DNA from: Psococerastis gibbosa
Lineage: Eukaryota > Arthropoda > Insecta > Psocodea > Psocidae
Assembly (NCBI GenBank): GCA_963971405.1
Contig: OZ020487.1
Coordinates: 10,451,344 to 10,515,343, forward strand
Length of the DNA: 64,000 bases
Direction: 5' to 3'
Shown here: positions 1,849-56,894 of the stretch, in pieces
Position numbering within the stretch: position 1 is the stretch's first letter
Layout: every line of letters starts with the position of its first letter
Notes under the pieces: model-generated
Told to the model about the DNA's origin: nothing
Seen by the model: only the letters and a program-made list of their open reading frames with translations
Database searches by the model: none
Made by a program: the position numbers and the translations under genes

Positions 1849-2305
1849 CAGGTCCTGTAGAATAGTGGTACAGACTCCGATTTCACCCGAAAGGTTGTTA
1901 GTAGTAGAGTGGTTGGACACAGTCCCAGGCCACGGTGTGGGCCCATAGGACAGTGGACCTCCTGATTATAGTGGATTCCGAACCACTTGGGAAACACAGT
2001 GAAGTCACACGATTAGTTCGGAGGTGACCAGGACAAGTCCTACCATGTTTCCCTACCGGCACTGTGCGCACGAGCAAGTTATCTGCATCTATGAACCTGC
2101 TCTGGTCCGCTGGATTCAACTTGATATGGCGGCCGGCTCGAAAGGTTGTTGGTTCGAGTCCCACACTGGCTACATTTTCTGGCCACGCTTCGGAGAGAGG
2201 ACGTAAAGCAGGCGGTCCCGGGTCATCCTAGTTGAGTGTAAGAAAGGGCTTTACAGCCCTAACTCTGCTAGGTTGGCTTAGTAAACAACAAAAAGTCAAG
2301 AGTTT
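1849..2305 (+). mobile_element. tRNA-derived SINE family A, split by another repeat
   Basis: Forward copy of SINE family A: head TGTAGAATAGTGGTACAGAC (A-box-like), B box GGTTCGAGTCC near 2150, body ending in the reverse complement of CTAAGCCAACCTAG. It is split between 1900 and about 2138 by a second repeat (GGACCTCCTGATTATAGTGG...). Both sides of the insert carry CGAAAGGTTGTT (1889-1900 and about 2138-2149), a 12-bp target duplication. The insert is a copy of the dispersed family C element also seen at 20955-21280. Confidence 0.7.
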
Positions 2306-10939: not shown

Positions 10940-11039
10940 CGATGTAGGACTTTATAACTGCAAAGGCTTTCACGGCCGGAGTCGAATGAGGAACCAGTAG
11001 AATCCGGGCTGATGGGCCGTGGTCGAAGTGAAAGTGAAC

Positions 11040-11084
11040 TTCCAAACGTTTCGTCAACATCTGCGGTCGACATCTTCAGTGGAA
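11040..11084 (-). ncRNA. Hammerhead-ribozyme-like motif (copy A, left arm)
   Basis: Mirror-image of the 11814-11858 motif with the same stem I (TTCCA/TGGAA), CTGAAGA core, GTCGAC/GTTGAC stem II and GAAACGTT junction, read on minus. Confidence 0.5.
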
Positions 11085-11502
11085 CTGCGTAGACTTCTAA
11101 GATTGTATCTCGGAGGCTCAGCAGCGACTGTGAGGGCAGGAGGTTGTGCTCTGAAATTTATACTAAGATGCGGGGTGGTGGGGGTGGAGGCGGAGTCATC
11201 CTCGCTCCTGATTGGCTCCCTACTACCTCAACCTGATTTCCGGATGATGACACCAGTTTCTTTGCTGTAGTCTTCTTTAAGGCTGGATACCAAATTCTAT
11301 TGACCTTTAATCCTTCTTCTTTCCTTTCTTTCCAAATTCTATTGACTTTTAATCCTTCTTCTTTCCTTTCTTTCCAAATTCTATTGACCTTTAATCCTTC
11401 TTCTTTCCTATTGAAGTTATGCGGGTGCTTGTGGATCTCTATAGCCTCTCTGTGTAACCGAGGGTGGTATGAAGAACTTGTACATGCTACAGTACTTTCT
11501 AC

Positions 11503-11641
11503 AACTTCTTCATACCACCCTCGGTTACACAGAGAGGCTATAGAGATCCACAAGCACCCGCATAACTTCAATAGGAAAGAAGAAGGATTAAAGGTCAATA
11601 GAATTTGGTATCCAGTCTTAAAGAAGACTACAGCAAAGAAA
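11503..11641 (+). pseudogene. Penelope-type ORF C-terminal remnant
   Basis: Translation of the right arm gives SYHPRLHREAIEIHKHPHNF and NRKEEGLKVNRIWYP. The REAIEIxKHPxNFNRxxG...W pattern matches what I know of the region after the GIY-YIG domain in Penelope-like polyproteins. The mirror-image left arm encodes the same peptide on minus (about 11250-11480). Neither the reverse transcriptase nor the GIY-YIG core is present, so this is a dead fragment, not a host gene. Confidence 0.6.
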
Positions 11642-11813
11642 CTGGTGTCATCATCCGGAAATCAGGTTGAGGTAGTAGGGAGCCAATCAGGAGCGAGGAT
11701 GACTCCGCCTCCACCCCCACCACCCCGCATCTTAGTATAAATTTCAGAGCACAACCTCCTGCCCTCACAGTCGCTGCTGAGCCTCCGAGATACAATCTTA
11801 GAAGTCTACGCAG

Positions 11814-11858
11814 TTCCACTGAAGATGTCGACCGCAGATGTTGACGAAACGTTTGGAA
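11814..11858 (+). ncRNA. Hammerhead-ribozyme-like motif (copy A, right arm)
   Basis: In order: TTCCA (stem I 5' strand), CTGAAGA (core CUGANGA), one extra T, GTCGAC-CGCAGAT-GTTGAC (stem II, six pairs including one G-U), GAAA, C-G-T-T (two-base stem III, U16.1 and H17=U), TGGAA (stem I 3' strand, five pairs with TTCCA). All invariant core positions of a type I hammerhead are present. Oddities are the extra U after the core and the loopless ACGU stem III, which could pair only between two copies. Hammerheads are established in Penelope-like terminal repeats. Activity is an inference. Confidence 0.5.
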
Positions 11859-12120
11859 GTTCACTTTCACTTCGACCACGGCCCATCAGCCCGGATTCTA
11901 CTGGCTCCTCATTGATGTAGGACTTAACTAAAAACCATGACCAAATAATTTTCTCTTGATTCATTGATGGGAATCATTCCAAATGATTGGAAAACGTGAG
12001 ACTGAGAGCCAACTAATTTAATTCTCGTTCCACAGCAGCTACTAGGTATATACTAGATATATTGGCAATATCACTCTTTGAACACCTCCAAAGTATACAA
12101 ACTTTGATGATACACAATGC

Positions 12121-15089: not shown

Positions 15090-15650
15090 CAGTGAAGGTT
15101 TTGATGAAACAGTAGAATCCGGGCTGATGGGCCATGGTCAACCCGAAAGCGTAATTCCAAATGTTTCGCCAACAGAAGCTGTCGACATATTCGATAGCAC
15201 TACGCAGACGGAGGCTTAGTATTGACTGTATGGCCACAGGAATAAATAAATAAATAAGGACTTTTTAATGTTTCTATTACTAAGCCAACCTAGTGGAGTT
15301 AGGGCTATAAAGCCCTCTCTTACACTCAACTAGTAAGGCCCGGGACCGCCTGCTTTACATGTCCTCTGAAGCATGGCCAGAAAATGTAGCCAGTGTGGTA
15401 CTCGAACCAACAACCTTTCGGGTGAAAGTCAGAGTCCGTACCACTACGCTACATGTGCAATATTATTTATACTAGGATGAGGCACCCTTCAGGGGAGTGA
15501 AAGACACACCGGTCCGTGATTGGCTCGCTGCCAACAACTTTATTTCAGGTTGATGACGTTTTTGTTATTGTTTTGTTTGGGGGCTGGATACTGTAGTCTG
15601 TTAACCTTCTTCCTTTCTGTTGAAGTTGTGAGGGTGCTTGTGTAAATACT
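15090..15650. mobile_element. Diverged Penelope-type copy E, interrupted by a SINE
   Basis: 15105-15240 matches the arm (ACAGTAGAATCCGGGCTGAT) but is heavily mutated, and the ribozyme-like core is lost. 15470-15640 continues with the inner part (TGATTGGCTCGCTGCC, GGTTGATGACG, GGGCTGGATAC, TGAAGTTGTGAGGGTGCTTG). The SINE at 15259-15456 lies between the two. Confidence 0.55.
15259..15456 (-). mobile_element. tRNA-derived SINE family A
   Basis: Minus-strand copy with B box GGTTCGAGTACC, CCCGGGCCTTACTAGTTG and end TAGGTTGGCTTAGTAATAG followed by (ATTT)n tail sequence. It is inserted in Penelope-type copy E. Confidence 0.75.
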
Positions 15651-25215: not shown

Positions 25216-25603
25216 TAGAGGTGTGCCGTTCCTGTCTTTTTCAAGAGCTTGCGTTACCAGTTCCAGTGATTCAAGAATAGCGGTTCCTAATACGCATTCT
25301 TTTAGGAACCAGTTCCTGGGTTAGGCTCAATCCCAATACTGGTGACTAGTAATCGTGCCCTGTCCATACTCTGTAGGAACCAGTTTGCCAATGGTTCGCT
25401 TATGTAAAATTTAGTAAAAAAAAAATAATCATTAACACTAATTTGTTACTAATTTTCCGTGGAGTAAGAACTTGTTAAGTAACTGACCGGAAATCCCCAT
25501 TTAGAATTGCGTTCCTCAAGAACCTAATATTTTCAAGTTTCAACTAGTTCCTAGCTCAAGAACCGCTCTTAGGAACGGCTCCAGTAAGAACGACCCAGCT
25601 CTA
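25216..25603. mobile_element. hAT MITE nested in Penelope-type copy D
   Basis: Starts TAGAGGTGTGCCGTTCCTG and ends with the imperfect complement AGAACGACCCAGCTCTA. Exact 8-bp duplication TCACTCGC (25208-25215, 25604-25611). The TAGAGxTG terminus and 8-bp duplication are classic hAT traits. No transposase ORF. Confidence 0.85.
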
Positions 25604-25650
25604 TCACTCGCTATGGAGCCACCGAGGTACAACCTTCGAAGTCTCGTCAG

Positions 25651-25695
25651 CGCCACTGAAGATGTCGACCACAGATGTTGACGAAACGTTTGGAA
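25651..25695 (+). ncRNA. Hammerhead-ribozyme-like motif (copy D)
   Basis: Same core as copy A (CTGAAGA, GTCGAC/GTTGAC stem II with loop CACAGAT, GAAACGTT, TGGAA). The stem I 5' strand is CGCCA, leaving three pairs with TGGAA. Confidence 0.4.
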
Positions 25696-26317
25696 GTTCA
25701 CTTTCATTTCGACCACGGCCCATCAGCCCGGATTCTACTGGTTCTTCATGATAATTCCAACGATAATAAAATAGAATAGATGGCTAACCATAACACATAA
25801 TTGATTTCTGTTTCATTTGACTGTTATTTTAATTTATTTTTGAAAATCTAGGGGGCCATGCCCCCTGCTCTCTTGCAGACGCCCTTGATTGCAGTGAACC
25901 TGCCAATGTAATGTGTATAATTTAGAGTCATTTGCAGTAAAAGTGCGATAGAATTTCACGGGAACAACTAACAAGCCACTCAAAAATATAGCATTTTATC
26001 TTATACTTTACATGTATTGTGTAATTTAAAGGAAATATATTTTGTATTGTATTGTACACATAAATCGGGAGGAGAGGCTCACGTCATTTCTAGACTAAGG
26101 CTCGGTACACACGGTCCCAGACGCGATTTGCGATTTTCATTATAAGGATACGGCTTGGTGAATGGTCAGTGCAAATCCACGGAGTCAGATTCAGAAGATT
26201 TCTATGATCTGGCGTATCGAGGGAAAACCCGTGGACTTCTTAGTCAATGTATTGAATAAAGTATTGGCTTTATGCAATTAGGTAAGCTCACAAACCTGTT
26301 CGGTTAGACAGTTGTGT

Positions 26318-26639: not shown

Positions 26640-26815
26640 GCCAACCTGTCTAGCAACACGAATCATGTCAATTAGAGCATAAGTAGAGGATTTGGCGAGT
26701 ACTGGACTTGTCGGGGCTTGTGGTCCAGCGGTTAAGACAACGCCCCGATTAGGCGTAGATCGTGGGTTCGAATCCCACCAAGCCCAGTTTTTTTCCATAT
26801 CCTCTAATTTCGGTC
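26640..26815 (+). mobile_element. SINE with internal tRNA-like domain (family T)
   Basis: A leader (TCTAGCAACACGAATCATGT, AGTAGAGGAT) precedes a cloverleaf-compatible domain, 26714-26785, with seven paired acceptor bases (GGGCTTG/CAAGCCC), a five-pair anticodon stem (ACGCC/GGCGT) and T arm GTGGG-TTCGAAT-CCCAC. A tail TCCATATCCTCTAATTTCGG follows. The anticodon position would read GAT, but position 33 is C, so this is tRNA-derived rather than a functional tRNA. Relatives: 43060-43228, 43365-43520 and 60345-60540. Confidence 0.65.
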
Positions 26816-29360: not shown

Positions 29361-30006
29361 CAGTACCGGCAAAAAAAATCTTGACAAGGTGAAAAAAATA
29401 CAATAAATCAGTTTTCATTCAGTTTATTTGTTATTTTATTTGTTTATTTTATTGGTGTTTATGTTTTAATTCAACAGCTGTTATGGACGGAGCCTTCAAT
29501 ACTTCTCGCTTTAGAATTTCATCTGTTCGTTGGGAGGTCTTTCTAGGGGCTCCAGACCCCTTTTTCCTGATCGGGACTTCCCCTGGTAGCAACTTTGAGG
29601 CTGTGCGTTTGAGCTGGTAAATGGTCTCCCTTGAGACTCCTAAATCAAGCGCAACAGAGCTAACCGTGTCGCCCTTTTCCAGAAGTGTTAGAGCACGCGA
29701 CTTTTCTTCCATTTTAAGCTTCTTACGCCCCATTGTAAATTAAATAAAACTCAGCAAACTTCCCAAATCAGAAAAAAACTAACAACAAAAATCACCGTAA
29801 TTTGTAATCTGTTTCAACAAGAACTGGTGACGCAATGAGACTGGAGTAGATGGCATGCGCGGCCTAGTGGCGCACGGACGAACTAAGCAACAGGCCAGGC
29901 GTCTCAATTCAATAGGGTGGTTATGGCAAGTAAAATCATGACATGATGTTTGCTTGTCAGGTTTTTAATTGCCACCCAAGTGTAATGATTTTTTTTGCCG
30001 GCACTG
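29361..30006 (-). mobile_element. Tc1/mariner element, internally deleted
   Basis: Ends CAGTACCGGCAAAAAAAATC and GATTTTTTTTGCCGGCACTG form an inverted repeat of about 20 bp, with TA on both sides (29359-29360, 30007-30008), the Tc1/mariner duplication. At 646 bp it is less than half a full element. It keeps the DNA-binding half of the transposase and has lost the DDE domain. Confidence 0.85.
29449..29733 (-). CDS. Tc1-like transposase N-terminal DNA-binding domain
   Basis: 94 codons from ATG: MGRKKLKMEEKSRALTLLEK, then a helix-turn-helix (SSVALDLGVSRETIYQLKR, about residues 25-45). Next comes a basic linker with the GSGAPRKTSQRTDEILKREV pattern common to Tc1 transposases. It stops at KHKHQ, far short of the usual roughly 340 residues; no catalytic triad. 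The ORF is intact, so a short inverted-repeat-binding protein is conceivable, but nothing shows that it is expressed. Confidence 0.7.
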   Translation of the reverse strand: MGRKKLKMEEKSRALTLLEKGDTVSSVALDLGVSRETIYQLKRTASKLLPGEVPIRKKGSGAPRKTSQRTDEILKREVLKAPSITAVELKHKHQ

Positions 30007-31730: not shown

Positions 31731-32390
31731 GGTTACTGGACAAGGAAAACAGTGAAGTGGTGGTGATAGACTGCTTGACAGTTCTAACAACAAAATGTAA
31801 AATGATGAGTCCATACCAATTTTGAAAAGAACCGGTATACGAGTGAACCCGTGCTTTTCTATTTATCCTTGTATGTAGGTACCAAAATACTGTACCTTGA
31901 TAATAGATTAGATTAGATCAGATTAGATTAATAGGTTTTTTATTTTATTTTTATTTTTTATATTAATTAATAATTAAATAATAATTAATAGGTAAGCAAC
32001 CTGTTTGAATTTGTAATTTTAATGAAAATTGAAAAATTGAACCTTTTTAATCTTTATGTCCTCTGAAACAAACCATAAAAAGGAATGGGGGGTTTGTTTA
32101 CAATAATAAGGACTTTTGGACTAGGCAATACGCCTTTATGTGGTTTAAAAAAGAAAACCGTTGGAGTCATTTTGGAGAAAACATTTTTGCCGTTGTTTTT
32201 TAGTTATTGGAAGTTAAACTAAAATCCCCCACATTGAGTTAGCCCAAAATAGATATAATAATTGTCCCGAGACATGATCTTTTCAACCTACAAGCCAAAA
32301 TAATGTAACTGCAAAGGCTTTCACGGCCAGAGTCAAATGAAGAACCAGTAGAATCCGGGCTGATGGGCTGTGGTCGAATTGAAAGTGAAC

Positions 32391-32435
32391 TTCCAAACGT
32401 TTCGTCAACATCTGCGGTCGACATCTTCAGTGGGA
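32391..32435 (-). ncRNA. Hammerhead-ribozyme-like motif (copy B, left arm)
   Basis: Core CTGAAGA, stem II GTCGAC/GTTGAC, GAAACGTT and TGGAA, read on minus; the stem I 5' strand is TCCCA, so pairing is weaker. Confidence 0.4.
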
Positions 32436-32569
32436 AAAACAAGGCAATGGAAATTCCCCAGAGGAACACAACAACAACAACAACGTCCAGGTATAAAGGT
32501 CAGTGCGCAGCCCCCTACCCAGTCACTCGCTACGGAGCCACCGTGGTACAACCTTCGAAGTCTACGCAG

Positions 32570-32614
32570 CGCCACTGAAGATGTCGACCGCAGATGTTGA
32601 CGAAACGTTTGGAA
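32570..32614 (+). ncRNA. Hammerhead-ribozyme-like motif (copy B, right arm)
   Basis: Same core as the other copies; the stem I 5' strand CGCCA gives three pairs with TGGAA. Confidence 0.4.
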
Positions 32615-32859
32615 GTTCACTTTCAATTCGACCACGGCCCATCAGCTCGGATTCTACTGGTTCTTCATCTACAAGCCAAATTTCATCAAAACCATGGAGT
32701 AGTATTTTCACAAATCAACAGACAGACAGACATAGTGACCGGCCCCGACTGACTGACAATTCGTAAAAAAGCATTTTTTTTTTTCCCTGGACTCTCAAAA
32801 CGTGTAAATCCGTTGAAATCTCGAAATCGAAAATTTCGACCATCAAAAAGTTTTCCTTA

Positions 32860-43059: not shown

Positions 43060-43520
43060 TCTCCAGCCGAAAATTAGAGGATATAGAAGAATTGGGCTTG
43101 GTGGGATTCGAGCCCACGATCTACGCCCAACCAGAGCGTCGTCTTAACCGCTGAACCACAAGCCCTGACAAGAACAGTTGATATACTGTATATCCTCTAC
43201 TTATAGGCTCGTATTGACATGATTCGTATTGCTGCTAGACATGTTAGCACAGCTACACAACTATCTAATGGAACAAGTCTGTGAGCTTACTTTCTGCCAT
43301 AAAGGCAATGCTCTACACATGATATTGCAGTATTATATGGTACCGTATGCACAATATAAAACTGACATTAAATTAACTATAAGTAGAAGATATACAGTAT
43401 ATCAACTGTTCTTGTCGGGGCTTGTAGTTCAGCGGTTAAGATGACGCCCCGGTTAGGCGTAGATGGTGGGTTCAAGCCCCGCCAAGTCCAGTTTTCCTCT
43501 AATTTTCGCTTATAACGAGG
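43060..43520. mobile_element. Head-to-head pair of tRNA-domain SINEs (family T)
   Basis: Left copy on minus (tRNA-like domain 43094-43165), right copy on plus (43418-43489), sharing CAACTGTTCTTGTC leaders and a GAGGATATACAGTATAT block. Both domains are 72 nt with seven-base acceptor pairing; the right one has GGGCTTG/CAAGTCC. The anticodon site reads GGT in both, with U33 only in the left copy. The inverted pair could form a long hairpin. I regard them as retroposons; a live tRNA cannot be excluded from the left copy. Confidence 0.65.
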
Positions 43521-43789
43521 AGGTTACCTCTTCAACCTAAGTTAATTTCATGTCAGTGTCATGTACATACTATAACCATAAAGTAATACTGCAATGTAAT
43601 ACCATAACATTTGTATTACTTGTAAAAAAAAAAATACTTGTAATAACTTACTATCCCCATGATATACACGGATCACTTACCATTTTGCAGTTGTGCTACT
43701 CTTCCTGATTTCCAAATTTCATATTGATTACCGTTTCAAATAATAGGACTCTGGCGAAATTACTATACTTGTGTACATACAATACTTAC

Positions 43790-44179
43790 TTGGGGAAAAG
43801 CACAGGCCATGGAAAACAACCACGCCACTAGCAGCATAAGTTTCCCGCGGCGTTGAGCATCGCTGACGCGAAGTGGATGAAGAATCGCGAAGTACCGGTC
43901 CATTGAGACGCACACGAGCACATTTGACGACAGATAGAGACCAAACGCGCGCAAAACCGCGAAGAGCTTGCAGAAGAAATTGCCTGCTGTCCACTGAACC
44001 GTGATCCGCCATCCGATCTCAAGGGGGATCATAATGAGCGTTACGATCAGGTCGGCTATAGTTAGGTGCAGAATCATTAAGCTTATCCGGGACTTGCGAT
44101 GCCTCCCCCGGAGGAGAGTTGTTAGAACTGTTAGGTTGCCGGCTGAAGCGATTACTAGAAGAATACTGTATACTATCAC
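43790..44179 (-). CDS. GPCR exon: TM1-TM4 of AKH/ACP/RPCH-family receptor
   Basis: 130 codons (residues 37-166 of the joined protein) between an acceptor (ctgtttcag) and a donor (CAA|GTAAGT), both phase 0. Visible class A hallmarks: GN in TM1 (N51), HLTIAD in TM2 (D79), the disulphide Cys at the top of TM3 (C106), and the DRY motif at 130-132 within [12 protein letters not shown]. The stretches [20 protein letters not shown] and IPLEIGW are typical of insect AKH, ACP and crustacean RPCH receptors, relatives of the GnRH receptor, which couple at the plasma membrane. Within the family it resembles AKH/ACP receptors more than corazonin receptors, mainly from the TM6-TM7 exons. I cannot choose between AKHR and ACPR by eye. 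Confidence 0.93.
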
Positions 44180-46720
44180 CTGAAACAGAAGAAGGCTTTT
44201 TGCAGTACGATTTTTCTTTGCCGAACAAGTGGAACTCTGAGAGTTTTAACATCAGGGGTTTTAGATCATCGTTAGGGGCAACCTTTTGTATTTTTATTTG
44301 TCACTGTCTTTATTTTATGTTATTTTTGTGTCTTTATTTGTCACTGATGTATTGTATTAGTTCATCACCATTGCGTTGTTTATCATTCTCGATTAAATGC
44401 GGCCAGTTGCGGGCTTCCATTATTATTTTACTAAACTTTAAAATTTGAATTTGCATAATTGTATTGTGTATTTAAAAAAATCTCATAACGCTTTAGAATG
44501 AGGCATTTTTTAATTTTTAGCCTAAAAAAAAATATGTTGAACAATTAATTACCAAGGATAGATAAATTGGTGAATTTTACGATACCGTAGGGACTTCCAT
44601 GTATTTATATTGTCAGGGGCGTAGTTTCAATATAATTCCAGGGGGGGAGGGGGGGGGCAAGATGGCAATTTGGAAAAATTTTAAACAAGGGTGTAACAAT
44701 TTCATCTTTAGTCTGGGCCATTGCCGTATTTTTTCAATCGCAGGACATATGACTCCTCCCCCCCCCCCCTGGGGCCCCAAATGACGCCCCTGTGTATTGT
44801 AATGTACTTCAACGTTGACAATAGCTTAATGTTTTAATGAAAATACCTGAAGCAGGTAGGCAGCACTGAGAAGTTCACAAATTACAACCATAAGTTTTAC
44901 ATGAATTTGCTGAATTTGCATGTTTTTCCCTTTGTGGATTTAACAGTGTGCATTTTTTTTGTCCCATTTTTATCCAATTTGGAAGCTATATGAGGACTCG
45001 TAATGCCATCATTGCATGTACGAGTATTGGAGTATGTAGTAGTCAAATCTAACTGTAAAATATTCTTTAAACAGTGTCTAGTAAGACTGCTGTGAGTACC
45101 TAGTGCTGCTAGTAAGACCTTAGTGATATATTTTTCAGCGATCTTTCCCGATTAGACAATGATTTACCGGGCAATGTTTTGCCTCCCCACCTGTTTTCAT
45201 ATTCATACACCGTCCCCATGTTTACTTCAATTGATTTGGTAATTACCGTACATTGAATTTCAAATTTCAATTCATTTCCCTTGATTGCACGTCGCGTTAT
45301 CCAAACTTTAGTGAACGCAAACGGTACTATACAACAGCAAACAATCTGCCCTGAAGCCAAATTCACCTCTATTTCGATTTTAGAAACTAATTGTCAAAAG
45401 CTTTTGAATCCGGTACCTAGCACATTTTTTTAAATCAACAAAACAAATTCGACACCCCTACTACGCGTTTTTTGTACGAAGTCGGATTTCTCATGATATA
45501 TTGACAAAAAAGCAATAAATGAGAGTAAAAGTGAAAGTTAACATACTTTATGATAGGTTTAATGCAAACTAGCTTAACGGATGTTTTAAATGTCTTTAAA
45601 AAGTCCCTCTAATGACTTTAAGACAGACTTGGTTCTTATTCCTCGAGCAAACTATAATACAAAAAGGATAATAAAAGGTAAACAGTATATACGGTACATA
45701 TTGATTGTTGAATTGTTGTCACTAAAAGCCCGAAGATTGGCTGTATTTTTCTCCTCTGAACCATTCTGGCTAGTTTTCATTTTGGGGAGTCACGCAAAAT
45801 GGGACCTTCTTTAACTAAATGTAAACCAAGCGAACCCTCTCCGAAGAGTAATGCCTTTTTTTAACATGATTAATCTCCATCCTTTCTTTTTGAGTAAACG
45901 TCACTTTAAAGCAGTGTTTTTTGACGAATTAGTAAGACGTTCTATAGAAAGTTACTATAGATTGTAAAGATTATACTGTAAATCGCTTGATATATTTTAT
46001 TCTACGGTACATTTTTTGAATTAAGGGATGGCATCTTTCTCTGCAATTGTCTAACATTTAAAGACATGCCTAGTAATCGGATGGACTTGCAGCTTTGAAC
46101 TTTCAATAAAGGCTTATTTATCTTTATTTATTATTATATTTAATTACATTTTCTATTGTATTATGTAATTCTTTGCCTCGGTCAATGCCCGCCCGATGGA
46201 ATGCGTGGATACCAAAAATTTACGCCAGAGAATGATTGAAAAAAAATCAAGCAGAAAATTCCAATTATTGCTTTTCGTGGAAACAATTTCCGGTGTACTC
46301 GAAGTAATTTACTGGTTTCCTGTTTCCATATCCGGTTATGTTTCACTGAGTTAAATTGTCGAAAAAAATGGATGTTAAATTCGCTGTTGGCTTCAAAAAG
46401 TTTATTAAATCTCTCTTTATTAGCTTTTAATTTACAATGCAGTACTATAAATCATACAAGTAATAAATTGCTCATGTATTCGGGCGTGTTCAAGTCATGT
46501 GACATGTGACATGTGACTTATATTTGCTTCAAATCGGGACACTTGGTTTTAGGATCACTACGAACATTCCATCCTTGAACACACAAAATAAATATATCTA
46601 ATGTGTTGGGAAAGACGTAGAAGTCATTATCGAATTTATACCCTTTTGATGACAAAAATTATTCTAATTTATTCTACTGCACCCTAAAATAATTTATGAT
46701 TTGTACAATAATCAGCGTAC
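44180..46720 (-). other. Receptor intron between the N-terminal and TM1 exons
   Basis: 2541 bp, GT at 46720 and AG at 44181-44180. It holds the hAT MITE at 44614-44792 and otherwise AT-rich sequence with no recognised element. Confidence 0.7.
44614..44792. mobile_element. CAGGGGCGTAGTTT hAT MITE
   Basis: Inverted ends CAGGGGCGTAGTTT and AAATGACGCCCCTG; G9 and C11 tracts. Flanks TATATTGT and TGTATTGT match at 7 of 8. Confidence 0.75.
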
Positions 46721-50550: not shown

Positions 50551-51750
50551 ATTAAATGACAAAAAAAAAAGAATCTATGCTTTTCAGAAGAAAAAAAATC
50601 GTATCGGATTTGGGGGGTGTATCTACCTACATTTTGTGTAGCTACCATATCCTCTTAAGCAATGAATGTCATTGCTCTTTATAAGCGTCGTCTTGATCCC
50701 GTGAAGTGACTTTGACAGTGGAGAAAAAAAATTAAAATAGGAAACCATGGTGATGTTACATTTTGGAATCACAGAACTATTTCAATACACACGACTGATT
50801 AAAAATATTTTATGCCATGATTCTTTGAATGACTACTGCCTTATCATGATGTTAAAAATACTTCTGAACATTAAACATATCGGCATCGCTATCACAACAT
50901 TAATTGTAGACTAAACTATGAATGATAATAATATCCGAATTAATGCAACAAAAGTGTGTTCTGAACATGATAAAATGATAAATAATAGACGCAGGATGGG
51001 TAGGTGTGTGGGTAAAATTAATGCATTTAATGTTTGATAAAAAAGAAAAATAATAATTTTATTGTTATGATAATATCTTATCATAATAACTCGTAAGAAT
51101 CAATTACCCCAAGGTCAAGAGTGCATTGCAAAGTTTGATTCAAATCTCTTGACATTTTCTATTCGTGGGAAGCCACTTCTTTAAAAGTGTTGTGATGCTG
51201 TGGATTTCCCAGTAAACACCCAAGGTTTCAGAATGTGTGGGAAAAAAGGGTAAAAATCGGGAACAAAGGTTCAAAATTATTTGAATGATTATTCCATTCA
51301 AAGAAAGTTGCAAAAGGTTGAAGGGAAAAGGGCTTCCTTTTCAAATATTATTGTAGCTTATACCCAGGAGATGTGGTTTAATAATACTGGTAGGTAAAAG
51401 AGCAAAATCGAAGGAAAGCATTTCTTCCATTTCCGAAAGAGAATTAAATTTTCCTTATAAAAATATTGTACTTACTACAGTATGATTGAAAGAACAATTG
51501 TACATTTTAGTTTGTTAGGTATACAGAATATATTAGATATTTATGTGATATTGTAGCAATGGGTTATAACTTGGGGAAATTTGTGAAATGCAAGCTGTCT
51601 AATCACTCGAGGCGAAGCGAGGCGAGGGCTGAGATCGGGTGGTTACAGAGGTTGCATCCAGTCCAACTAACCGTTCGTTTAATAAAAATGGCATTATTTA
51701 TTTATTTACTGATTATTATTATATTTACATATACAGTATATATCCGGTAG

Positions 51751-51905
51751 GGAAACATGGTAGGCCTTGTCCTGGTCACCTCCGAACTAATCGTGTGACT
51801 TCATTGTGTTTCCCAAGTGGTTCGGAATCCACTATAATCAGGAGGTCCACTGTCCTATGGGCTGGCATAGGACAGTCAAGTCGGGGTCGCTCTATGGGCC
51901 CAAAT
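51751..51905 (-). repeat. Dispersed repeat family C copy, partial
   Basis: GGTCACCTCCGAACTAATCG, TTCGGAATCCACTATAATCA, GGAGGTCCACTG. 50660-51750 and 51910-52630 are unassigned. Confidence 0.5.
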
Positions 51906-52634
51906 TTGAGGCTTAAGTCGTTATTAACCCGACGAACACTACTACTACTACTACTATACAGTATATAATGCATTTCTAACAGGGGATGATACCAACAACA
52001 CGTACACACAGCGCATCATAACTAGAGTGTATAAGGGTGATGAGTTTATAATTTGTAGTAATGTAATGTAATTGTACCAATTGATACTCCACCCCCCCCC
52101 CCCTCCCTCCGTCTGCCTAATACAGTATGTGCTGATTGCTTTGATGAATGTTTACTATTGATTCCTTAAAGTGCTTTCAGGGTATCTCATAATTATTAAA
52201 TCATTTCCGATTTATAGCCGCAAGGCATCAGCATGCTCTTCAAATATTACCTGCTCGATATCATTTCGCAAAGCAAAAAGTAATTAATCACGAATGGAAT
52301 TGAAGCCACGGCTTGTGTATATTTTATATGAATTAAAACCGAGCGCTTTGCTGTTGATTCCAAATTCACTGAAGTGCTACGACTATATTTTGTAACTAAA
52401 GGGTCAAAAACTATTGTTGTGTGGTGTTCTACTGTACAGTAGGTAGTTGACCAAGGAATCTCGACCACTACACTTTCCCATTCCCTTTCTACTTCAGCTG
52501 ATTCTGCTGTTATTAGCAGAGGTTCGCAAGGTTATGCGTTGTATTGGGCTACAAGAAAACTTATGGCGGAAGCCTAATGCTATGAAGTAATTTAGAAAAA
52601 GGATACACTTGAAATAGATAAAATATGCAGTCTT

Positions 52635-53606
52635 GCATGTCTTTAATTTTCATTGGACGAATTTCCATTGGAAGAATTTTAGGTCTTTGGGCCCACTCTT
52701 ACAATTAACCCATATCATTGAATATATAACACAAGTGTTATAACTAGTGTTATATATTCAATGCCCATATGTATGCGTCCGTAAGACCTAGGCCTATATT
52801 TTTCTTTTATATTTTAGTTTTAGAGTAGGGTAAATTGTTATAGGTCTTCTTGTGAGGCTTTACAATTATTGTGTTTAAATTGTTCTATATTTAATGCACA
52901 TTCATTCATTCATTCACTCACTATTATACGACTTTTTTTTTCAATCTCCGATAGGCTACACAAATTGACGTTGGGCTTGGTATTTCACAAGCCCAAGTCG
53001 GGGTATTGGTATTCGTTTTCAACTAGCAATAATCGCACCTCGGTAAAACTTCATTGGTTACCTTCGATATTGCTGCTGCGCATATAGCCAACGTCAAGGG
53101 CTACTTGAATTCATTGGCGGCAATATTCTTTGATGAGGGTATTGTCCACAGATATGACAAATGTCTCAATCTCTAGGGTGATTATGTCGAAAGTAAGTGC
53201 ATCAATCTTTTGATAATAAAATTATTGTTTTATATGAATTTGTCTGTTATTGATAGCCTATCGGAGTTGAAAAATAACAGGCCTCGCTAGAAATGTTTTT
53301 CGTGGCGGTTGGAAGTAACCTCAATATATTTAAAACTGCATTGCATCTAGTGTACGCTGAAAACATTTCGGGGGGTTGAAGGTTGACCCCCCCCCCCCTC
53401 TGGTTACGGCCATAACATACAGTAGACTAGGTACATTGCATATTAATTTTGATTTCAAATTTCTGATACTTAATACTTCATTTAATATACGAAGTTATTA
53501 ATGATTTAGTGGATTTAGCCTATTTGATTTACAGATACCGAATTGTCTTTAATTTCCATTGGACGAATTTTAGGCCTTTGGGCCCACTCTTACAATAACC
53601 CATAAT
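52635..53606. repeat. Direct repeats flanking a foldback
   Basis: 52645-52715 and 53546-53606 share TTCATTGGACGAATTT/TCCATTGGACGAATTT and CTTTGGGCCCACTCTTACAA. Between them a foldback at about 52938-53275 has arms CAATCTCCGATAGGCTA and TAGCCTATCGGAGTTG. It is too short for an LTR pair; more likely a segmental duplication. Confidence 0.45.
52716..52763. mobile_element. 48-bp palindromic element
   Basis: Ends CATTGAATATATAACAC and GTGTTATATATTCAATG as in the 36-bp element at 12121. Exact 7-bp duplication CCCATAT (52709-52715, 52764-52770). The paralogous stretch near 53595 reads AACCCATAATC without the insert, an apparent unoccupied site. Confidence 0.65.
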
Positions 53607-55778: not shown

Positions 55779-55904
55779 GCACCAATGACTCCCATCTCAA
55801 CAGAACTGCAGCGTATCTATAACTGCAAAGGCTTTCACGGCCGGAGTCGAATGAGGAACCAGTAGAATCCGGGCTGATGGGCCGTGGTCGAAGTGAAAGT
55901 GAAC

Positions 55905-55949
55905 TTCCAAACGTTTCGTCAACATCTGCGGTCGACATCTTCAGTGGAA
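55905..55949 (-). ncRNA. Hammerhead-ribozyme-like motif (copy C, left arm)
   Basis: Identical in layout to copy A on minus: TTCCA, CTGAAGA, GTCGAC/GTTGAC, GAAACGTT, TGGAA. Confidence 0.5.
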
Positions 55950-56364
55950 CTGCGTAGACTTCTAAGATTGTATCTCGGAGGCTCAGCAGTGACTGTGAGG
56001 GCAGGAGGTTGTGCTCTGAAATTTATACTAAGATGCGGGGTGGTGGGGGGTGGAGGCGGAGTCATACTCGCTCCTGATTGGCTCCCTACTACCTCAACCT
56101 GATTTCCGGATGATGACACCAGTTTCTTTGCTGTAGTCTTCTTTAAGGCTGGATACCAAATTCTATTGACAAGAAGACTACAGCAAAGAAACTGGTGTCA
56201 TCATCCGGAAATCAGGTTGAGGTAGTAGGGAGCCAATCAGGAGCGAGTATGACTCCGCCTCCACCCCCCACCACCCCGCATCTTAGTATAAATTTCAGAG
56301 CACAACTTCCTGCCCTCACAGTCACTGCTGAGCCTCCGAGATACAATCTTAGAAGTCTACGCAG

Positions 56365-56409
56365 TTCCACTGAAGATGTCGACCGCAGATGTTGACGAAA
56401 CGTTTGGAA
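56365..56409 (+). ncRNA. Hammerhead-ribozyme-like motif (copy C, right arm)
   Basis: Identical in layout to copy A on plus, with five-pair stem I. Confidence 0.5.
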
Positions 56410-56894
56410 GTTCACTTTCACTTCGACCACGGGCCATCAGCCCGGATTCTACTGGTTCCTCATGCAGCGTATCTGTCGAATATAATCGACCTTGCCTTAT
56501 ATGGTACTAGTTAGTTGGCACATTCCATCCCATTCGAGGCCGTATTGTGTAGGTCATATTTTATCAAAAAGCTCTGGACAAGATCAATGACTGTAAGACA
56601 GCCGCTCAATGGCCATTGATCAAACTATATGGCTACTTCCACACGTTTCCGAGAGTCCGTTCTATATATCCACTGCATTGCGGCTGGCGGCTTTTAATTT
56701 GAAATCTAGCAAACCGAACACCCCCAATAAAAAATTGTTTTTAAAAAACATCGAATTCGCCATGATATTATAGAATCTAAAATCAGATCTGATGTGTTAA
56801 AGTAGAAGAAATGGTCCTCTGCATTTTTATCCGTACACTGCTGTCTGCTTGGCCACCGTTTTGGAAGGCGTGAAAATCTTTCAAGTTTTAATTT

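Follow-up and report, generated by a model that had tools for sequence, protein, structure and literature searches.

A minimal hammerhead-type motif overlapping start and stop codons in the terminal arms of a Penelope-like element of Psococerastis gibbosa

Seven sites in a 64,000-nucleotide stretch of Psococerastis gibbosa DNA (the window, meaning the whole stretch analysed) are, as judged from their sequence, copies of a hammerhead-type motif of known kind, borne by one Penelope-like element (PLE) family. The best explanation, which we consider likely, is that the sites lie in 3′-terminal arms of the element, that a minimal type-I hammerhead overlaps there both an AUG and a TGA of the element's reading frames, that the proposed cut takes place in a dimer, and that it is uncut RNA which inserts.

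The core is in register at all seven sites, each of them on one strand, and reads CTGAAGA-T-GTCGAC-(7 nt)-GTTGAC-GAAAC-GTT-TGGAA; every coordinate given for it in the preliminary description was confirmed. In the usual numbering of hammerhead core positions, C3U4G5A6N7G8A9, G12A13A14, the pair A15.1-U16.1 and H17 are present at each site. Stem II has six pairs throughout. Stem I has five pairs at 11040, 11814, 55905 and 56365 and three at 25651, 32391 and 32570, in agreement with the earlier figure of up to five bases. The predicted cut after U11853 also agrees in position with the hammerhead alignment and corresponds to +29, where plus numbers are counted from the A of the AUG (11825 in the motif 11814..11858).

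Stem III is an ACGU without a loop at all seven sites, and the monomer form of this stem is absent. It is only the monomer form that is lacking, because the published minimal PLE hammerhead is likewise without loop III; the earlier view that two copies would have to pair through ACGU matches what the accessible text of these publications says of PLE hammerheads (PMC7761336, PMC6155905).

A relaxed scan of both window strands, which required CTGANGA, GAAAC and GTH, allowed zero or one additional base and asked for four or more pairs in stem II and three or more in stem I, matched exactly the seven sites; 60 dinucleotide shuffles gave 0.0 matches on average. In the 409-Mb genome the exact motif pattern had 1,064 + 1,179 matches, compared with 0 + 0 in the reversed control. 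The Rfam hammerhead models gave no match at the gathering threshold across the window, and none at E up to 10 in window 11000-12000 or in the loci L105, L108 and L109, so that the recognition by covariance models envisaged in the preliminary description did not appear in the stretches tried. This lack of an Rfam match would suit a repeat that resembles a hammerhead by chance, and the seven sites are indeed not independent, because they are arms of just four insertions, nor are they seven tests, because the copies are related. Chance resemblance is nevertheless extremely improbable in view of the shuffles without a single match, of a second family (below) with the same core and a different but paired stem II, and of PLE hammerheads being a published class (PMC11167929, PMC7761336, PMC6155905, PMC7229834, as far as their accessible parts show).

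Folded in silico, the motif of the first family (F1) forms stems I and II with pair probabilities of 0.82-0.93, and its F1b form with about 0.4-0.5. In a two-strand fold, the best predicted duplex of two isolated motifs differs from the hammerhead dimer.

Comparison with a tandem copy of the element, locus L009, was used to delimit the insertion units of the window. The seven motifs belong to three inverted pairs and one single arm (Table 1). The eighth, decayed copy in the table is absent from the preliminary description. All window arms are 5′-truncated and there is no complete ORF at the window loci; after the AUG at 11825 only the first ~30 codons are left. For the single arm at 25651, no target-site duplication was found, the flanks tried having no common word of 8-13 nt. 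As the two motifs of a unit lie on opposite strands, a single transcript would have one motif in sense and the other in antisense orientation, which leaves no cis dimer. The expectation of an active or recently active ribozyme finds no support at the window loci, given the truncated arms, the opposed motifs and the absence of 3′ ends at the cut reported below.

Table 1. Coordinates of the motif, the insertion units and related features in the window
Feature	Position	Strand	Remark
Hammerhead motif under study; stem I 5 bp, extra U, stem II 6 bp, loopless ACGU	11814..11858	+	
AUG overlapping the core (A9, extra U, G10.1)	11825..11827	+	matches start codon of the 882-aa ORF in L009
TGA closing the upstream (C-terminal) frame, within 3′ strand of stem II	11842..11844	+	
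Predicted cleavage between U (+29) and U (+30)	11853..11854	+	from alignment to the hammerhead scheme
Head-to-head unit 1; 3′ ends long (+121) in the minus arm and short (+89) in the plus arm	10953..11913		
12-bp target-site duplication of unit 1, GATGTAGGACTT	10941..10952 (left), 11914-11925 (right)		
Hammerhead motif, unit 1 minus arm	11040..11084	-	
Hammerhead motif in single arm (about 25595-25749); stem I 3 bp	25651..25695	+	
Head-to-head unit 2	32300..32668		12-bp duplication CTACAAGCCAAA at 32288-32299 and 32669-32680
Hammerhead motif, unit 2 minus arm; stem I 3 bp	32391..32435	-	
Hammerhead motif, unit 2 plus arm; stem I 3 bp	32570..32614	+	
Head-to-head unit 3	55819..56462		12-bp duplication TGCAGCGTATCT at 55807-55818 and 56463-56474
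Hammerhead motif, unit 3 minus arm	55905..55949	-	
Hammerhead motif, unit 3 plus arm	56365..56409	+	
Eighth, decayed copy of the motif segment; CTGAAG core lost	15102..15209	-	

Some further features were observed in the window. At about 11288-11410, the minus arm of unit 1 contains about three tandem copies of a ~42-nt stretch, of which the plus arm has one. Another interspersed repeat is represented by a translated stretch (..CPGHLRTNRVTSLCFPSGSESTIIRRSTVLWA) common to 1898-2227 (-) and 51633-51968 (+). Three tRNA-like sequences, at 26714-26786 (+), 43093-43165 (-) and 43418-43490 (+), were called Ile(GAT) once and Thr(GGT) twice by ARAGORN, and their likeness to one another suggests a tRNA-derived repeat. 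A transposase-type helix-turn-helix frame lies at 29452-29739 (-) (HTH_7, E 1.9e-08; CENP-B_N, E 1.4e-04), an exon-like frame of a rhodopsin-type seven-transmembrane receptor at 43763-44245 (-) (Pfam 7tm_1, E 2.8e-24), and a match to U4 spliceosomal RNA (76.7 bits) at 52921-53087 (-).

The coding arrangement of the element can be read in L009, where the two motifs are 2,629 nt apart. Here, a frame of 882 aa opens at the AUG (A9, extra U, G10.1) of the first motif and closes at the TGA in the stem II 3′ strand of the second; within the same 45 nt, one ORF starts at its AUG and the ORF upstream of it stops at its TGA, in different frames. The core sets A at -3 and G at -1 relative to the AUG, which is a favourable start context. 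The extra U had been proposed to mark a distinct subclass, for which there is no need since it completes the start codon; it is better explained as the middle base of AUG, as comparison with PAc of Anolis suggests (PMC11167929, accessible part).

The 882-aa protein has an RVT_1 domain (Pfam, E 1.5e-11), and no Pfam match to a GIY-YIG domain was obtained at E up to 10. A GVY...VYIG stretch, spotted by eye, presumably corresponds to something like the GIY-YIG motif. NCBIfam and PDB sequence searches with the element protein returned general reverse transcriptases alone. Several features of a PLE are present, namely an RT ORF linked to terminal repeats, inverted or tandem pLTR-like arms, tails and short duplications; the RVT_1 match, the head-to-head arms, the tails and the duplications bear out the original assignment to a Penelope-type element.

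Searching the genome with the 882-aa protein gave 54 places, with 51 candidates scored. They include copies that are 98-99% identical and free of internal stops, as well as three relatives at 73-74% identity. The overlap of start and stop recurs in two of these three relatives, as read in their 3′ part. Some variation touches the motif itself: L107, one of these two relatives, whose frame is open over 764 aa, has G8>A, and L110, a long copy with an intact frame, has a stem II mismatch in its second motif, so the core is not strictly kept.

How much of this conservation is due to the protein and how much to the RNA? The copies used for 3′-end mapping and for the stem I and synonymous tests were picked by patterns fixing the core and much of stem II; invariance of the core and stem II among them holds by construction, and the loop, -9..-7 and everything from +27 onward were free to vary. 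Upstream of the motif, variants present in at least 4 copies were synonymous in the ORF frame in 9 cases out of 15 (expected 4.3, P 0.009), with 4 and 1 synonymous in the other two frames. Downstream, at +30..+123, 7 of 20 were synonymous in the frame of the ORF start (expected 5.5, P 0.30), which is no excess.

Comparison with two relatives gives a longer view. In the region that precedes the tail, synonymous sites approach saturation (pS 0.78 and 0.78). The tail itself, ~60 codons long, is poorly conserved (pN 0.42 and 0.41) and is followed by the last 13 codons before the motif, with pS of 0.62 and 0.52 and pN of 0.03. The segment -9..+36 has 0 and 1 differences, and as it is nearly unchanged despite the high synonymous divergence, it is held at the nucleotide level. 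There are just 4 differences at +37..+121 to the relative whose copy extends far enough, so the conserved block reaches beyond the ribozyme and the conservation is not specific to it. By analogy, the wider constraint probably includes the region of template recognition and RT start; in PAc, the first 172 nt of the ORF are required (PMC11167929). Two PLE families also differ far less over the interval -9..+121 than over the remainder of the ORF (L009, L107, L108 and other loci), which may be due to selection on the RNA or to recombination between the families.

The synonymous excess upstream and the extension of the block to +121 would also be consistent with a motif that no longer cuts, its 45 nt being kept as the two ends of the protein together with an RNA recognised by the RT at the ORF start. 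The G8>A change in a relative with an open frame, and the lack of copies ending at the cut among the 50 mapped, point in the same direction. What makes us regard this as unlikely is the second family, F2. F2 was found at 402 + 368 places, compared with 2 + 1 in the control, by a search pattern in which the core, a single pair of stem II and a second base other than T were fixed. In its stem II, GGGAGU/ACUCCC, six pairs enclose a loop of 7 nt (predicted probabilities 0.96-1.0, against ~0.38 for its two-pair stem I), and the core with the extra U is kept although the N-terminus is a different peptide, MGVAPTPET in F2 versus MSTADVDET in F1. Four of the six stem II pairs differ from F1 on both sides, one differs on one side and one is the same, in a comparison made among the matches listed (100), where 15 of other length were left out and 3 of 85 fell in neither family; just one of these pairs was fixed by the search pattern.

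Between the two families, stem II shows changes on both sides of the kind expected of a paired stem. Within families, covariation gave no useful signal in F1 or F2: in 66 F2 copies, single breaks were many and there was one double change (G-C to A-U), which is what dead copies would be expected to show. Nor was any compensation seen in stem I, whose outer two bases change TT>CG uncompensated. F2 is provisionally placed among the PLEs by its insertion plan alone, and a full-length F2 ORF was not found. A possible family without U after A9 was considered as well; its pattern (CTGANGAV..) occurred at 98 + 99 places versus 33 + 36 in the control, and the 100 matches listed all look like decayed F1/F2 copies or chance.

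None of the 50 mapped copies ends at the predicted cut (+29): 49 have their 3′ end at +36 or further, and the remaining one is the ORF itself. The 126 distinct 3′ ends form two clusters, 65 at +74-97 (most at +87-89) and 59 at +108-127 (most at +119 and +123), the remaining 2 being at +59 and +107. The clusters near +88 and +121 are about 60 and 93 nt past the predicted cut. The query for these 126 ends began at +31 and was blind to copies ending at the cut, so the statement that no copy ends there rests on the 50 mapped ones. At the 5′ side, an excess of arm ends at the cut was not seen, as +26 to +33 held five distinct arms, counted by eye, with no sharp peak. Most sampled loci lie within the initial 15 Mb of a single contig, and the counts of ends and pairs cover a subset of the genome matches.

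Neighbouring arms within 3.5 kb were head-to-head in 52 of 61 cases, in the same direction in 7 and tail-to-tail in 2; within 1 kb, all seven neighbours were head-to-head among the matches listed (100 exact-pattern places). Among 47 head-to-head pairs, 40 had one long and one short end, 5 had two short ends, none had two long ones and 2 were of other kinds; in 24 of the 47, a flanking word of at least 9 bases was common to both sides. At equal odds per end, the chance of at least 40 long/short pairs in 45 is about 4e-8, a figure which overstates the significance because some pairs are near-duplicates (L010/L059, probably L057/L058). The arms of one pair differ by 0.051 on average (39 pairs) versus 0.114 between pairs, and none of 5000 draws was as low. 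F2 repeats this plan with its own positions. Across 26 loci, 10 of 11 neighbouring arms were head-to-head, with ends near +148 and at +174-185; 8 of the 10 pairs had one end at or before +156 and one at +174 or beyond (two of them with ragged short ends), one had two short ends, and one could not be classed, its arm being the query.

These end positions, the pairing and the likeness of the arms fit two primings from one source on both strands of one staggered break. The prevalence of head-to-head neighbours and the origin of both arms from the same subfamily might also be produced by self-priming (fold-back) of one cDNA, which has been proposed for Penelope elements of Adineta from palindromic junctions (PMC3846280, in its accessible part). 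Fold-back of a single cDNA, however, is at odds with outer ends that lie at two different start sites in 40 of the 47 pairs and with arms truncated at different points within a pair, and we think it rather improbable compared with priming on both strands.

Under the explanation that we favour, a hammerhead with no loop III and a short stem I would be located where tandem units meet. In transcripts that read through such units, two of these motifs would pair via the ACGU palindrome and be cut after +29. The PLE protein would probably assist the cleavage, as loop III is missing and PAc RNA stays uncut without protein (PMC11167929). After such a cut the upstream ORF would retain its stop and the downstream ORF would be parted from its AUG, so that one RNA molecule could be either the mRNA or the cleaved product. 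The template for insertion would be RNA uncut at +29. On a break staggered by about 12 nt, reverse transcription would start from ~+121 on one strand and from ~+88 on the other, and this priming on both strands would yield head-to-head arms.

There is also a slim chance that two motif RNAs joined via the loopless ACGU form a dimeric particle priming both strands (at ~+121 and ~+88), with the hammerhead serving mainly to join. If true, such a role would explain why a dimer-only ribozyme is kept though the sampled copies never end at the cut, and why the arms come from the same source with one long and one short end.

Minimal PLE hammerheads were reportedly described by Cervera & De la Pena (2014) and by Lunse, Weinberg & Breaker (2017). 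In the accessible text of two publications they are of type I, miss helix III, are proposed to act as dimers and number thousands per genome (PMC7761336, PMC6155905). The Psococerastis motif is like them in its type-I core within a PLE pseudo-LTR, its lack of helix III and its many genome copies.

Closer parallels exist with PAc, a Poseidon element of Anolis, as described in the accessible part of PMC11167929. In PAc, too, the ORF begins at hammerhead stem II, the cut site lies inside the ORF (about 26 nt into it) and so does the RT start (111-118, two adjacent sites). The PAc protein cuts and extends both DNA strands, core mutants which abolish RNA cleavage still insert, and no RNA-seq read ends at the cut (PMC11167929). 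The Psococerastis element differs from PAc in its sequence, in its two end classes near +88 and +121, and in that the upstream ORF has its stop codon within the motif; neither 'stop codon' nor 'overlap' is mentioned in the accessible part of PMC11167929. A stop codon inside the ribozyme was likewise not encountered in the accessible portions of the PLE hammerhead literature examined, and the wider literature may hold it.

With Penelope of Adineta vaga, the element shares inverted pLTRs, an optional tail (~31 bp in Adineta) on one of them, a pLTR that includes the first ORF codons, and short duplications, of 8-10 bp in Adineta and 12 bp in the window units (PMC3846280). The accessible part of that report mentions no hammerhead, and a count of long/short pairing was not encountered in it. 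Animal retrozymes also carry type-I hammerheads in retroelements, and those of amphibians have a weak helix III and need dimers; they are short and non-autonomous (PMC7229834, accessible part), unlike the Psococerastis element with its 882-aa RT ORF. Minimal PLE hammerheads and, from PAc, the ORF start at stem II are thus known already; what is added here is an informative coding overlap and a rule of insertion.

The role of the PLE hammerhead has been described as unknown (PMC7761336, accessible part). With the predicted ribozyme of this element placed over the start codon of one ORF and the stop codon of the preceding one, cleavage would shut off the former and leave the latter intact. The sampled insertions would have been copied from RNA left uncut at that position. 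The rule of one long and one short end, found in two families, constrains the insertion mechanism of PLEs, and with over two thousand exact copies in the genome these become testable statements on the role of the PLE hammerhead.
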